A DNA stretch of 25,256 bases, taken from a virus. The stretch lies in IMG/VR virus record IMGVR_UViG_3300030419_007104, positions 3,067 to 28,322 of that record, one strand, 5' to 3'. Shown here piece after piece: positions 5,613 to 25,163 of this stretch. Position numbers and translations under genes: made by a program. Position 1 is the stretch's first letter, and each line of letters starts with the position of its first letter. Under the pieces are notes generated by a model. That model did no database searches. It was not told where the DNA came from and was given only the letters and a program-made list of their open reading frames with translations.

Positions 5613-7064
5613 ATGGCTAGAAACAGAGTAATTTATCAGAGTCAGGCTCTCTTCATGAGCCCTACATCCACTGGTTACCATCAGCAAACAGGCAATAAAT
5701 TTTGCTCTGTTGACGCTCCCGGTAATACCAATTGGACAGGAGTTACGGGTGTCAGTTTACCAGACGGTTCAATACCGGTTGGTGGTGGCGCAGCCGTTGT
5801 TTTAAATAGATCCCTAGTTGAGCCCCTTCACCGTGTTCAGTCTGCGAACTTTAATTTCACAATTAATCGCCAAGATATCAATGAATTCGGCAAACTGGCC
5901 AGATTAGATTCTATTGTGATGGAATCGCCCACCGTTGGTTTAGATTTTAATTATTATCTTACTGATGGCGGAAACGAACGTAAAATGGGTTTCAATATTC
6001 CTACTAATGGATCTGGAAGCGCTGCTAATCACGGCTCCCGACCTAATGCAAACACTGTAGCATGGACAGGAGATGGCTGTATATCTGGCTTTTCTGCTCT
6101 TTCTGGTTTGATCGAAGACACTCAAGGAAATAACTATTTTATTGTTACTTCTAAGGAAGGTACTGATGTTCAGGGAGATACAGTAGTAAATAATAATACT
6201 GATTTTGATGTTATTGGAATTGGTAATGGTTTCATTAGTGATTATTCTATTGATGCATCTGTAGGCGCTATTCCTACCGCAAGTGTTACAGTTGAAGCTT
6301 TTAATATTAAGGCAGATAACTACATTTCGGGAACTAGCAGCGATAACCAATCTGGAGTTATAATTCCGGGTGTTAATGACACAGATGGCCAGTTAGTAGA
6401 CGTTGGTTTCAATTTCCGTGGCGGCACTATTTCTACCACAGGAGATTATGTATCTGGAAGTCTTGTCGCAGATAATACAATTACTGCATTACGTCCCGGC
6501 GACATTCTGTTAGAATTCATTGATCCAGCTCCAGATGGTTCATTTAATACTGACGGTTTCGCTGTATTAAGCGGTGATGGATCAGCTCATATTCAAAGTT
6601 TTGGCGTTACTGTTCCAATGAGTCGTACGATTTTGGGCAGATTAGGTAATACATTTGGATATGCTCGTGTGATTGATCTTCCAATGAATATCGACATTAG
6701 TGTTTCTGCAATTCTTTCAGAATTAAGGTCAAATAACTTATTTGAAAGACTTGCAAGTACCGATAAGCATGACTTCCGTTTGACTATGCGCCGTTCTGCT
6801 GGCACAGGCAAACCGGGTGCTGATGCTATAATTATTGATGTTAAGGGAGCTCGACTTGAGGGTGAAAGTTATAGTAACGCTATCGGAGATAACGAAACTG
6901 TAGATATCACCTTCTCTACACAAGTAGGTGGCTCCAATGACACCGATAACGGTATCTTCATGAGGGGATCGTATGCCAGATGGCCTTCTATTCCGTACTG
7001 GGTATTAGGAGATCAAAAATCTCAAAAAGGTGGCTTAGCTAACGAAGTGTTAGTCCCATCCTAA
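5613..7064 (+). CDS. Tail tube-like major tail protein, copy 1
   Basis: A 483-residue virion protein. It is a clear paralogue of the next gene. Both begin MARNR[VI]IYQS and share a block around residues 85-130 (RQDINEFGKLARLDSIVMES) and a long C-terminal block with GNTFGY, RVIDLPMN, the AIGDN region and a final MRGSY/MEGSY. Repeated beta strands, the conserved C-terminal half and the position near the tape measure and neck genes fit a long tail tube protein. I see no sheath gene in the window. The middle (about residues 230-300) is not conserved between copies. A promoter-like inverted repeat lies upstream and a perfect terminator follows. No ribosome binding site is evident. A different tail structural role cannot be excluded. 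Confidence 0.85.
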   Translation: MARNRVIYQSQALFMSPTSTGYHQQTGNKFCSVDAPGNTNWTGVTGVSLPDGSIPVGGGAAVVLNRSLVEPLHRVQSANFNFTINRQDINEFGKLARLDSIVMESPTVGLDFNYYLTDGGNERKMGFNIPTNGSGSAANHGSRPNANTVAWTGDGCISGFSALSGLIEDTQGNNYFIVTSKEGTDVQGDTVVNNNTDFDVIGIGNGFISDYSIDASVGAIPTASVTVEAFNIKADNYISGTSSDNQSGVIIPGVNDTDGQLVDVGFNFRGGTISTTGDYVSGSLVADNTITALRPGDILLEFIDPAPDGSFNTDGFAVLSGDGSAHIQSFGVTVPMSRTILGRLGNTFGYARVIDLPMNIDISVSAILSELRSNNLFERLASTDKHDFRLTMRRSAGTGKPGADAIIIDVKGARLEGESYSNAIGDNETVDITFSTQVGGSNDTDNGIFMRGSYARWPSIPYWVLGDQKSQKGGLANEVLVPS

Positions 7065-21115: not shown

Positions 21116-22222
21116 ATGATTTTCCATGTTTTAGCAGTTCCGGTACACCCTACTCGTAAAGAAATAACTTTATGTGCTTTCACGCAAAAAGTTTATAAGT
21201 TCTGCAAAGTAATGACAGAAAGAGGTCACACCGTCTTTCATTATGGACATCCTGATTCAGAGGTTTCATGTACCAAACATTTTAATGTAGTTTCGAGCGA
21301 AACTTACGATAGAGTTTACCAAAAAAAATCATGGAAAGATTTTATTTCCCAAAATGTTCAAAATGACGTTCACAAAGAATTTAATAAAAATGCTGCGGCT
21401 TTAATTAAAGAAAACAAGCAAAGTGATGATGATTTTGTATTGGCATTTTGGGGGTTCGGTCACGCTGAATGCTGTAAAGAGTTACATCCAGACTTTACAA
21501 TTGTAGAGCCGAGTATTGGTTACGACTCTGCTTTTGCTCCTTTTAAGGTGTTTGAAAGTTACGCTCATTTGCACAAAATGCATTTTAAAATAAATGGAGA
21601 TGAGGGATGTCCCTCGTTTACTGATCATGTTATAAGGCCGGGATTCTATTTTGAAGATTTTATTTACAAAAAGGAAAAAGAAAATTATTTACTATTTTTA
21701 GGTAGGCTAATAGATAACAAAGGTGTAAGCATTGCACAAAACTTGTCTAAGGCGGCTCAAATCCCTATAAAATTTGTAGGGCCACAAAATCAATTTCAAC
21801 TCCCTAAAGATAATCCTTTAGCTGAATATATTCATACAGTAAGCTATGAAGAGCGGAAAAATCTTTTAGCTAATGCAAAAGCTTTAATAATGCCTAGTTT
21901 ATATGCAGAGCCATGCGGATGGTCAATGTTAGAAGCTTTTATTTCCGGCACGCCAGTTCTTTCGACAGATTGGGGAGGCCTAAGTGAATATAATCTGCAT
22001 GGCAAAACTGGATTCCGCTGCCGCTCTTTAAATGAATTTTATCACGCCTTGGGTGCTATTGACACCATCAAACCCGAATACTGCCGGGAGTATGCAGATA
22101 AAAATTTCACGATTAACATCGTTGCAAAAATGTATGAAAGTTACTTTATTCACTTATTAAATGTAAAAAAATATGGCTTGGGAGCTGTTTTTTCCGAATG
22201 TGATTTTCTTGTCAAAAATTGA
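21116..22222 (+). CDS. GT4-type glycosyltransferase (GT-B fold)
   Basis: A 368-residue enzyme of the family that moves sugar from a nucleotide-sugar donor. The C-terminal donor domain shows LFLGRLIDNKG (193-203), then MPSLYAEPCGWSMLEAF (259-275). The latter holds the E-x7-E pair (E265, E273) typical of retaining family 4 enzymes and leads into SGTPVLSTDWGG. The N-terminal acceptor domain is less conserved. There is no signal peptide, so it acts in the cytoplasm. Possible targets are modified phage DNA bases, a virion protein or the host surface; the sequence does not decide. It is divergent from phoH with a very short leader, and no terminator follows it. Confidence 0.92.
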   Translation: MIFHVLAVPVHPTRKEITLCAFTQKVYKFCKVMTERGHTVFHYGHPDSEVSCTKHFNVVSSETYDRVYQKKSWKDFISQNVQNDVHKEFNKNAAALIKENKQSDDDFVLAFWGFGHAECCKELHPDFTIVEPSIGYDSAFAPFKVFESYAHLHKMHFKINGDEGCPSFTDHVIRPGFYFEDFIYKKEKENYLLFLGRLIDNKGVSIAQNLSKAAQIPIKFVGPQNQFQLPKDNPLAEYIHTVSYEERKNLLANAKALIMPSLYAEPCGWSMLEAFISGTPVLSTDWGGLSEYNLHGKTGFRCRSLNEFYHALGAIDTIKPEYCREYADKNFTINIVAKMYESYFIHLLNVKKYGLGAVFSECDFLVKN

Positions 22223-22278: not shown

Positions 22279-22581
22279 ATGGCAGGGGAAAATAAAAACA
22301 AAATCGGATTCGGGGACTTAGACACCTTTCTTAAGATAGCGCCAATTATTGGTTTAGCTGTTTTAGCTTATTTGCAAACATTATTTCCAAGTAAAGTAGA
22401 ATTTGAAAAGTTGGAAGATCATTTAATTCAAATGGACAAAAAGATAACAGAAATTACAATACTTCAAAAAGACACTTCAAATAATACTTCATCAATTAGA
22501 GATTTAGGCTCCAGATTAAGAGAAATAGAAATTAAGTTAGCAAAACATGAGTCCGTAGATGCAAAATCAAAAAAACCATAG
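22279..22581 (+). CDS. Small one-TM coiled-coil protein (holin or inner-membrane spanin candidate)
   Basis: A 100-residue protein. After a short polar N-terminus there is one membrane segment at residues about 18-36 (LKIAPIIGLAVLAYLQTLF). A heptad-like coiled coil follows (about 40-90: FEKLEDHLIQMDKKITEI, then SIRDLGSRLREIEIKLAK) and a Lys-rich end. One N-terminal anchor plus a coil suits an inner-membrane spanin subunit or an accessory lysis protein. No endolysin gene lies next to it in this window, so the lysis role is a guess from topology. It has its own promoter-like motif. Confidence 0.8.
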   Translation: MAGENKNKIGFGDLDTFLKIAPIIGLAVLAYLQTLFPSKVEFEKLEDHLIQMDKKITEITILQKDTSNNTSSIRDLGSRLREIEIKLAKHESVDAKSKKP

Positions 22582-23110: not shown

Positions 23111-23548
23111 TTACTTGCGCGTGGGCCTCTTTCTTTTATCTCCTCCACGGCGAGGTCGCTCACCTCGCTCACGACGCGGCTTACTGCCCCTTTTAGCATC
23201 TTTGTTTTTTCGTTCCGCTAATGCTTTTTTCATAGCGGCTTGTTCTTTTTCACAAAGCTTACCATCTTTATTTTTATCAAATCGCTGAAGCGCCATCCTT
23301 TTACGAAGCGCTGTTTGTTTTTCTTTAGCTTGCTGAGGGGTAAGCTTTCCCGCTTTTACTGCATCTCTAATTTTTTTAGCTGCAGCAGCGTACCTCTTTC
23401 GAGCATCGTTTGGATTGACTTTTTTAGCTGAGGGCTTTTTAGCTTTAGCGGTGGCGACTTTATTTGTTTTGTGATGATGATCAGCTTGAACTACGCTGGT
23501 GCCTAGTAACAATGCTGCCGTAATAATGAATGTAATATATTTCTTCAT
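23111..23548 (-). CDS. Secreted EF-hand, Lys/Arg-rich protein
   Basis: A 145-residue protein from the ATG at 23548, chosen because it starts a clear signal peptide (MKKYITFIITAALLLG, cleavage likely near SVVQA-DHHH) and has a good Shine-Dalgarno site (GGGAGAA at 23556-23562). An in-frame TTG at 23578 would spoil both. Residues 91-102 (DKNKDGKLCEKE) form a canonical EF-hand calcium loop with D, N, D, G and final E in place. Before it lies a helical AGKLTPQQAKEKQ segment; the C-terminus is a basic Arg/Lys/Gly tail. Single EF-hands in short secreted proteins are familiar from Planctomycetota and Verrucomicrobiota rather than phages, so host origin is likely. The function is unknown. Confidence 0.85.
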   Translation of the reverse strand: MKKYITFIITAALLLGTSVVQADHHHKTNKVATAKAKKPSAKKVNPNDARKRYAAAAKKIRDAVKAGKLTPQQAKEKQTALRKRMALQRFDKNKDGKLCEKEQAAMKKALAERKNKDAKRGSKPRRERGERPRRGGDKRKRPTRK

Positions 23549-23552
23549 AAAA

Positions 23553-24068
23553 TTATTCTCCCGGATTGTTTCCGTCAATTACCTCGTCTCTTTTGTTTTT
23601 AAATTCATTGCGAATTTCTTTGATCCGATTTCTAACCTCTTCCCGATTGCCTTTCATACCTTCGAACCAATCTTTACGAAGTCCTTTTAGTTGCTCCCTT
23701 AAACCGTCTTTATCTTCATCAGAAGCATCTTTAAGTTGCTTATGAAGATCTTTTACTTTTGAATGATGCTCTTTAGCAGCAGCAGCAAAAGCGTCTCTCA
23801 ACTCTTTAACTTTTTCATCATCTCTAACGAGCTTCCCAAAAGCTCGTCCTTTATGATGTATCTTGTGACCCTTCTTTTTCGAATCCTTATGATGCTTTTT
23901 ACGCTTTTCAAAAGCAGCCTTCAAACGCTCTTTAATTTTTTCTCTATCAATTTTTTTCTCAGGACGCGGCTTTTCTGGCTTCTCTTTATCTTTTTGAGGG
24001 CGAGCTTCTACTGTTGTTAATGAAACTGCTAAAGCAGCCAACAACCCAACTTTGGTTAAATATTTCAT
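23553..24068 (-). CDS. Secreted Lys/Glu-rich helical protein
   Basis: A 171-residue protein from the ATG at 24068 (MKYLTKVGLLAALAVSLTTV, a signal peptide with cleavage likely after VEA). Other starts at 24074 (ATG) and 24092 (TTG) lie in or next to the promoter motif and are less likely. The mature part is strongly basic, with Lys/Pro and Lys/His stretches (KKHHKDSKKKGHKIHHKG near residues 57-74), then a long amphipathic helix or coiled coil to the end. Export as a periplasmic or secreted protein is predicted, and the His-rich stretch could bind metal. It is the first gene of a two-gene cassette; its end contains the ribosome binding site of the EF-hand gene. No family is recognised with confidence. 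Confidence 0.85.
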   Translation of the reverse strand: MKYLTKVGLLAALAVSLTTVEARPQKDKEKPEKPRPEKKIDREKIKERLKAAFEKRKKHHKDSKKKGHKIHHKGRAFGKLVRDDEKVKELRDAFAAAAKEHHSKVKDLHKQLKDASDEDKDGLREQLKGLRKDWFEGMKGNREEVRNRIKEIRNEFKNKRDEVIDGNNPGE

Positions 24069-24071
24069 GAA

Positions 24072-24086
24072 CATATTATATACACT
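24072..24086 (-). promoter_or_regulatory. Promoter-like motif of the secreted-protein cassette
   Basis: On the minus strand AGTGTATATAATATG lies with 17 bases from its GTG to the ATG at 24068. It is one of the better matches to the repeated motif, which puts this accessory cassette under the same control as virion genes. Confidence 0.62.
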
Positions 24087-24202
24087 ATGCAAGGTTCGTG
24101 CCAGAACTTTTTTTTCATTTTTCTAATGTTTTTTTCTGCAAAGCAATCAGTATGGGAGATATTCCCCTATTAAAAATAATTTTAGGTAAATAATCCCCGA
24201 TC

Positions 24203-24217: not shown

Positions 24218-24427
24218 GTGAAACAATTTTTAAAATATTTAGTTTTGATAATCCTCCTCACGGGCTGCGCAAATCTAAAAGAAGTAGATATAAGCCTTAC
24301 CGGAATCGAAATGGAATATTATCCGTCTCACCCTTCACAAGAAGAACCAAGCATTTTTGGAGGTCCGCTTCCTAAAGTCGGAGACACGCTTCCCAAATTA
24401 ATGCCAATGACAAAAAATAAAAAATAA
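24218..24427 (+). CDS. Small lipoprotein (outer-membrane spanin candidate)
   Basis: A 69-residue protein starting at GTG. The N-terminus is a lipoprotein signal peptide with a clear lipobox: LLTGC, Cys at residue 17. The mature protein of 53 residues is short, polar and Pro-rich (YYPSHPSQEEPSIFGGPLPK), like Rz1-type outer-membrane spanins, which are small proline-rich lipoproteins. Two genes downstream is a one-TM protein that could be its partner. No endolysin is seen nearby. An immunity or superinfection-exclusion lipoprotein is the alternative. The MscS-like gene begins two bases after its stop. Confidence 0.82.
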   Translation: MKQFLKYLVLIILLTGCANLKEVDISLTGIEMEYYPSHPSQEEPSIFGGPLPKVGDTLPKLMPMTKNKK

Positions 24428-24429
24428 AA

Positions 24430-24870
24430 ATGGAACCTATTAACGCAATAACCAACTTGCTCACTGATACAAACTTAGCACAGCAACTGACGGCGCTAAA
24501 ACCCAAGGAAATGGAAAATATTGCTCAGCACTTATTTTCTGAATACGGGTGGATGTTTGCCGCGGGAGTAGGTGTAATTTTGATAAAAGATGTAATGATG
24601 AATTTTGCTAAAGGTATTTTAATATTTTATGGGTCACATTTTAACAATGACGATGTGATTTATATTAGCGGGCGTCAAGCACGGATAGTCAGAGTGGGTT
24701 TAACCACTACTACGTTTTACATGACGGACCGCAAGACCAAAATGGTCGTACCGAACGAGCAGCTAAAGGAGCTTACAATTGAAAAAAGTTTACCCCTTAA
24801 TGGCGGCTCTCCATATCTACCCAAGGGCAATGACCCTGAGTTTGAAAAACCAAACTCAAGTAAAAAGTGA
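24430..24870 (+). CDS. Miniature MscS-like mechanosensitive channel protein
   Basis: A 146-residue protein, about half the length of E. coli MscS (286). Residues about 42-70 (AAGVGVILIKDVMMNFAKGI) match the pore-lining TM3 of MscS, including the Gly/Ala packing face and the amphipathic second half. Residues 72-118 match the MscS beta domain: NDDVIYISGRQARIVRVGL, TTTTFYMTDRKTKMVVPNEQL, the position of VxIPN in the family. TM1, TM2 and the C-terminal alpha-beta domain are missing; the first 40 residues are a soluble or amphipathic helix. It lies between a lipoprotein and a one-TM protein, in a tightly packed run. It may form a pore at lysis, protect against osmotic stress or alter a host channel. 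The match is by eye. Confidence 0.78.
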   Translation: MEPINAITNLLTDTNLAQQLTALKPKEMENIAQHLFSEYGWMFAAGVGVILIKDVMMNFAKGILIFYGSHFNNDDVIYISGRQARIVRVGLTTTTFYMTDRKTKMVVPNEQLKELTIEKSLPLNGGSPYLPKGNDPEFEKPNSSKK

Positions 24871-25163
24871 GTAAATCTCAACGCAAACTAAAAATGAAAA
24901 GAAGAAAAGCAGAGCTTAGGAAGCAACAAGCTGCAGATGCAGTAAGAAAAAAATCCTTTAAAAAGAAAGTAATTGTAGGAATAATTATTATTTTGATTTC
25001 AATAACATTAGCTTTTATTTTTGGGGAGAAAAAAGAAGCTATCAAGGAAAAAGTAACCCAAACCATAGTTGAGAAAACAGTAGAATCTGTCGTAGATAAA
25101 ACTGCAAACGACGTAAAAGAAAAAGCAGTTGAAAAAATAACTGACCTATTCAATAATAAATAA
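24867..25163 (+). CDS. Basic one-TM protein (possible inner-membrane lysis protein)
   Basis: A 98-residue protein starting at a GTG that overlaps the previous stop as GTGA, so it is translationally coupled to the MscS-like gene. The N-terminal 34 residues are strongly basic (KLKMKRRKAELRKQQ). One membrane segment follows (about 35-52, VIVGIIIILISITLAFIF), then an amphipathic helix of about 45 residues (EKVTQTIVEKTVESVVDK). The positive-inside rule puts the N-terminus in the cytoplasm and the helix in the periplasm. That topology fits an inner-membrane spanin or a pore accessory. No family is recognised. Confidence 0.82.
   Translation: MSKSQRKLKMKRRKAELRKQQAADAVRKKSFKKKVIVGIIIILISITLAFIFGEKKEAIKEKVTQTIVEKTVESVVDKTANDVKEKAVEKITDLFNNK

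Follow-up and report, generated by a model that had tools for sequence, protein, structure and literature searches.

TcMscS, a protein of 165 residues from T. cruzi, resembles E. coli MscS only in the third transmembrane helix (TM3) and the β domain, forms a tension-gated channel of 0.4 nS in E. coli spheroplasts and has its predicted gate at the position equivalent to L109 (PMC8282336). Among viruses, the mechanosensitive channels that a survey of viral transport proteins from 2018 covers all belong to large DNA viruses and none to phages (PMC6163359), and a 2026 study found MscL genes in Caudoviricetes contigs (PMC13288924). Pinholins are heptameric channels of ~2 nm that work together with exported SAR lysins (PMC9636201). 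We found no report of a phage-encoded MscS in the open-access literature. Here we analyze a phage protein, mini-MscS, which belongs to the MscS superfamily by domain and fold and is not an MscS channel by full architecture.

The mini-MscS gene and its relation to MscS

The gene lies at the right end of a stretch of 25,256 nucleotides (the window) that represents most of a 28.3 kb virus record (IMG/VR IMGVR_UViG_3300030419_007104). The window contains the head and packaging region of a tailed phage, with a large terminase, a tape measure protein, a PhoH-like ATPase assigned by inspection and a weak match to a major head protein. The records of relatives and the gene content suggest that phages carrying mini-MscS are marine. 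A sequence-only reading had described an open reading frame of 146 residues between a lipoprotein and a basic protein with one transmembrane (TM) helix; we recovered the frame and both neighbors, and the gene is a tailed-phage gene set among envelope-protein genes. The features of this region are:

22279..22581, + strand: 100-aa protein with one TM helix and a coiled coil; spanin-like or holin-like topology, by inspection
24218..24427, + strand: small 69-aa ORF with GTG start, lipoprotein-like (lipobox LLTGC); upstream of mini-MscS, separated by 2 nt
24430..24870, + strand: mini-MscS gene, 146 aa; short N-terminal helices, one TM helix, β domain, short polar tail
24544..24633, + strand: TM3-like pore helix, mini-MscS residues 39-68 (hhalign against E. 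coli MscS, column counts, hydropathy)
24634..24792, + strand: β domain, mini-MscS residues 69-121 (family alignment, AlphaFold2 strands, Pfam)
24867..25163, + strand: 98-aa protein; N-terminus very basic, then one TM helix and an amphipathic helical tail (ORF call)

The lipobox of the 69-aa ORF scored below the cutoff as a single sequence (E 0.01) and is conserved in relatives. The start of the 98-aa protein overlaps the mini-MscS stop by 4 nt. The 100-aa protein lies within the same conserved gene region as mini-MscS and had no family match in Pfam, PHROGs or NCBIfam. Promoter and terminator scans around the mini-MscS gene gave nothing informative. Further upstream, the window encodes a family-1-type glycosyltransferase (21116-22222, +; PF00534, 3.3e-15) that is conserved in close relatives. 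On the opposite strand it encodes two very basic proteins rich in Lys and Arg, whose N-termini resemble signal peptides (23111-23578 and 23553-24092, -) and one of which contains an EF-hand-like stretch; both are apparently exported, an odd cargo for a phage.

Mini-MscS is almost certainly related to MscS. The match to an MscS profile came from the Pfam family MS_channel_2nd (PF00924), which covers residues 54-117 with an E-value of 1.7e-7 and 31.7 bits, above the curated cutoff of 20.2 bits. The same family was matched by 32 of 37 relatives, with no other Pfam family matched, and its cutoff was passed by four of the five T4-like members described below. The NCBIfam model for Helicobacter (H. 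pylori) MscS aligned with residues 44-116 (5e-5), far under that model's full-length cutoff, and H. pylori MscS was also the top phmmer match in the PDB, at a weak E-value of 0.012 (residues 45-113). PHROGs gave no useful match. In the reverse direction, a profile of the phage family retrieved full-length cellular MscS-like ORFs of 226 to 400 aa, and the alignment spans exactly TM3 and the β domain.

In two AlphaFold2 models built from family alignments (mean pLDDT 66 and 78.6), a five-stranded β domain follows a long helix (residues 25-67). For both models, the best 50 Foldseek matches in the PDB were exclusively chains of MscS, YnaI, MSL1, MSL10, MscK and Flycatcher together with 3t9n and 3udc, which are deposited as 'a membrane protein' and are compatible with the MscS family. 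The best E-values were 4.2e-5 and 7.5e-5, which contain sequence similarity and are not independent of the profile matches; TM-scores normalized by query reached only 0.34-0.49. Together with a single hydrophobic segment, the Pfam and Foldseek results bear out the earlier description of an MscS relative reduced to TM3 and β domain.

Residues kept and lost

Hydropathy analysis found one hydrophobic segment per protein in all 37 aligned members. The tension-sensing TM1-TM2 paddle is absent from all 37, in which the sequence leaves no room for it, and so is the C-terminal α/β cage, as mini-MscS ends shortly past the β domain and no member has a second Pfam domain. Because paddle and cage are absent, the canonical MscS gating machinery is missing.

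The family was aligned to E. coli MscS using hhalign, which placed residues 49-112 on 108-170 in a weak match (E 0.0018, probability 15%). The register derived from it, residue 49 against 108 with an offset of 59, is as weak as this alignment. On this register, K53-D54 falls at the Q112-G113 hinge of MscS, N58 at N117 and G62 at G121, while positions 46 and 50 match the MscS gate residues L105 and L109, respectively. All 37 members have a large hydrophobic residue at position 50 (I19 F11 M3 V2 L2; I50 in the window protein), and position 46 is A or G in 26/37. The hinge pair K/R53-D/E54 occurs in nearly all aligned members, and Y39-W41 lies at the interface in the TM3-like helix.

The most conserved part of mini-MscS by column counts is the β domain and not the pore helix. 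Residues D74, D75, G81, R85, R88, T94, F96, Y97, K104, V107, N109, L115 and E118 are invariant in 41 relatives. The PN(X)9N motif, which is P166/N167/N177 in MscS and was described as important in MSL2 (PMC3386975), is kept in its first part (P108 in 36/37, N109 in 37/37), with K/R at the second Asn in every aligned member. Few Lys or Arg residues precede the TM helix and the β domain is rich in both, a charge pattern that would fit an N-out/C-in orientation, as in MscS TM3.

Family spread and genomic settings

An IMG/VR scan with a single query identified 67 loci. The family alignment brought the number of related stretches to 158 or more, and additional queries turned up divergent members. 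The resulting 169 loci encode 110 distinct proteins, 101 of them complete and all of them short; the virus records are fragments and contigs of related phages are not independent. Protein lengths range from 103 to 223 aa, the long end including over-extended start codons, and members of a lineage that we call T4-like, by our reading of genome size and gene content, have 98-109 aa. The median dN/dS of 0.087 over 39 disjoint pairs demonstrates strong purifying selection. A chance or spurious ORF is ruled out by the Pfam match, the family of 110 distinct proteins and the dN/dS. A broken fragment of a full-length host mscS is likewise ruled out: purifying selection acts on the family, all of its members are short, and its phage records showed no full-length version.

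The tblastn searches of 50,697 phage records found no relative with E-values up to 1; for the T4-like version the limit was 10, again with no match. The one match among 84,980 prokaryote genomes was in a Flavobacteriales MAG, on a binned phage contig that also encodes a terminase and a PhoH-like protein; the collection scans used short peptide patterns, by which distant relatives, cellular ones included, would be missed. In 198 genomes, full-length cellular MscS scored ~29 bits at most with the family profile, versus 222 for phage copies, and identity to cellular MscS is about 20-25%. Recent capture from a host is thus disfavored, there being no close cellular relative and no cellular match beyond ~29 bits. 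The deeper order of the lineages is uncertain because of long branches in the family tree. The best viral structural matches, three unnamed BFVD proteins (A0A1B1IQW5, A0A516LVN0 and A0A516MLU7; 104-138 aa, 27-30% identity, E 3e-7 to 7e-7), are apparently family members already deposited. Mini-MscS sequences thus appear to be present in databases without having been described, and the family is large, strongly conserved and apparently phage-specific.

We distinguish at least four genomic settings. In the window type (a), mini-MscS lies beside the PhoH-like and terminase module, often with a small lipoprotein gene. A lipoprotein gene adjoins mini-MscS in no fewer than 39 of 101 loci; it is upstream in 8 and downstream in 31, and in 25 the two genes overlap by 4 nt. 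This is a motif-based count, to which reading of the loci adds cases that the motif missed. In setting (b), an outer-membrane-barrel-like gene occupies the opposite strand, with a Pro/His-rich lipoprotein one gene on and a 2OG-oxygenase-like gene near. In setting (c), mini-MscS comes straight after virion-like structural genes and is followed by secreted and lipoprotein genes. Setting (d) is the T4-like lineage, comprising contigs L187 and L190-L193. All gene-neighbor counts depend on simple ORF calling.

The contigs hold further genes. L016 (7599-9197, -) encodes an ankyrin-repeat protein that is also seen in L042 and L044, 8 nt downstream of mini-MscS. Its C-terminal region carries FMDIVGYS and TGDG motifs and resembles a class III nucleotide cyclase, with a PF00211 match (E 0.0014) that stays below the cutoff; this ankyrin/cyclase-like protein is present in a number of mini-MscS phages. 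A very short MotA/TolQ/ExbB-like protein of 112-171 aa (L052 7107-7454, +; L018 10789-11127, -; PF01618 E 5.6e-16, TolQ 1.5e-7) is a second miniaturized membrane-channel component close to mini-MscS. A pseudopilin with a prepilin methylation motif (PF07963, 1.5e-7) stands beside a secreted, weakly GspC-like protein (TIGR01713, 9.6e-4) in L054 (4293-5273 and 5270-5962) and G001 (43087-44030), recalling type II secretion. Secreted, probably β-barrel outer-membrane proteins with a weak MipA match (L037 5250-5942, L003 8040-8765) occur near mini-MscS in two different phage settings. L054 also carries two mini-MscS paralogs (2289-2618 and 5977-6399), one standard and one divergent without the NDD-YISG pattern; the divergent form was found again in L134.

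Possible functions and comparison with known systems

As a whole, the evidence is best explained by a phage-specific pore of the MscS type with a late, pinholin-like role in lysis, to which we assign a probability of about 0.4. Mini-MscS would be a minimal, phage-specific MscS member consisting only of the pore-lining TM3 and the β domain. By analogy to MscS it would most likely insert N-out/C-in in the host inner membrane, and through TM3 and β domain it may self-assemble to a ring, forming a small pore whose hydrophobic gate would be position 50. Since the TM1-TM2 paddle is missing, gating would probably depend on accumulation, membrane voltage or a phage partner, for example the coupled lipoprotein, and not on the canonical tension sensor. 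Late in infection the pore may make small depolarizing holes beside exported cell-wall hydrolases; a small pore would suffice because the lysins are exported. We regard it as somewhat probable that mini-MscS is a membrane oligomer that conducts. A lysis-phase role is plausible at a little below even odds. The narrower proposal, a new pinholin class in which a phage-only, one-TM ring of MscS fold acts with exported hydrolases at lysis by collapsing the membrane potential, is tentative and on the doubtful side.

The argument for lysis comes mainly from the T4-like lineage, where three of five related contigs have a peptidoglycan hydrolase no more than 1 kb from mini-MscS, each time an unrelated one. 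In L187, mini-MscS starts on the last base of the stop codon of an Amidase_2 gene (PF01510 E 1.1e-10). A glucosaminidase gene (PF01832, 5.7e-18), whose product has a hydrophobic segment at its N-terminus, lies 0.4 kb downstream of mini-MscS in L190. In L191, a gene 0.7 kb downstream encodes an SLT-like protein that carries a signal peptide and narrowly misses the Pfam cutoff (PF01464, 5.8e-4). This arrangement, one gene with hydrolases of three unrelated families next to it, resembles a lysis cassette. In L192 and L193 the nearest hydrolase was found about 26 and 10 kb away. SLT and glucosaminidase occurred only in the T4-like lineage among mini-MscS contigs, M15_4 lysins in none of them, and the partial contigs of lineages (b) and (c) contained no hydrolase of the searched families. 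In six window-type records the lysin found was a SleB protein 12-17 kb from mini-MscS, with an apparent N-terminal export signal in the three that we read (G001, G006 and G008). The suggestion of the sequence-only reading that the protein acts in lysis thus gains partial support from the gene context of one divergent lineage (3/5 contigs), but not from the window type with its distant SleB. Two further points speak against a lysis pore: other small membrane proteins of these genomes could be the holin, and holins diverge quickly, so that the extreme conservation of the β domain is unusual for one.

Mini-MscS might instead, as the sequence-only reading also proposed, protect infected cells as an osmotic relief valve, a tension-gated channel by which they survive osmotic stress or lysis is delayed during thinning of the wall by exported hydrolases. 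It shares its superfamily with osmotic valves, the short TcMscS is tension-gated (PMC8282336), and MscL genes in Caudoviricetes contigs increase with salinity (PMC13288924). We nevertheless consider this rather unlikely, as every family member is without the TM1-TM2 sensor, hosts generally own an MscS (PF00924 was matched in 14/14 control genomes) and E. coli mechanosensitive channels gave no protection or delay in β-lactam-induced lysis (PMC8372035). Mini-MscS may also have lost conduction and serve a phage envelope complex as an adaptor or as a ring anchored in the membrane. Such a complex might act in superinfection exclusion together with the coupled lipoprotein, or in assembling virions at the membrane. 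The adjacent lipoprotein genes, in either order and often overlapping by four bases, would fit such a scaffold, as would the position of the lineage (c) gene directly after virion-like structural genes and a β domain more conserved than the pore helix. The helix, however, keeps the hinge pattern of a pore helix and a large hydrophobic residue at gate position 50, and the lipoprotein had only lipobox-level matches and no family match to exclusion, which makes a scaffold unlikely.

The earlier proposal that the protein joins or poisons the host heptamer fared worst; the fragment would co-assemble with host MscS and block it or lock it open. It retains the TM3-β segment that is part of the MscS oligomer, but identity to cellular MscS is low while the β domain is highly conserved across phage lineages that differ in genome type. 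This combination suggests self-assembly or a phage partner. The gene is also kept in divergent phage lineages, which probably have different hosts, and we consider poisoning very unlikely.

If the MscS-type pore does conduct, it would be among the smallest natural pores of its type, its single TM helix and β domain taking up about 100 residues. It would also offer a direct test of the minimal MscS channel unit and of the need for the TM1-TM2 paddle in gating. If it acts at lysis, a cellular pressure-relief channel would have been reduced to a lysis pore. The family appears to be widespread in uncultivated phages and absent from the searched isolate-type phage records, which suggests that infection by these phages involves a so far unstudied membrane step.

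The known systems differ from the phage protein in architecture. E. coli and H. pylori MscS have 286 aa compared with roughly 98-180 aa for the phage proteins, which lack TM1, TM2, the C-terminal α/β cage and the β barrel. The hinge of the phage protein is a charged K-D as in H. pylori MscS, whereas E. coli MscS has Q-G, and the second Asn of the MscS PN(X)9N motif is replaced by K/R. The pinholin S21-68 spans the membrane with two helices and lacks a cytoplasmic β domain. The likeness to pinholins (phage 21 S21-68; PMC9636201) is one of role, drawn by analogy, between small phage membrane proteins making small depolarizing pores, with no sequence or fold relation claimed. MscS-like proteins are also encoded by large eukaryotic DNA viruses (PMC6163359; Aureococcus virus, Sylvanvirus), but these viruses are not phages and their proteins are longer (261 aa with three TM helices; 651 aa). 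TcMscS and the phage protein are both short, resemble MscS in TM3 and β domain alone and have a predicted gate at the position of L109. TcMscS differs by a second TM helix, a C-terminal segment of its own and demonstrated tension gating, whereas the phage protein has one TM helix, as read from its sequence. That TcMscS conducts means that an MscS protein without the full bacterial architecture can do so.
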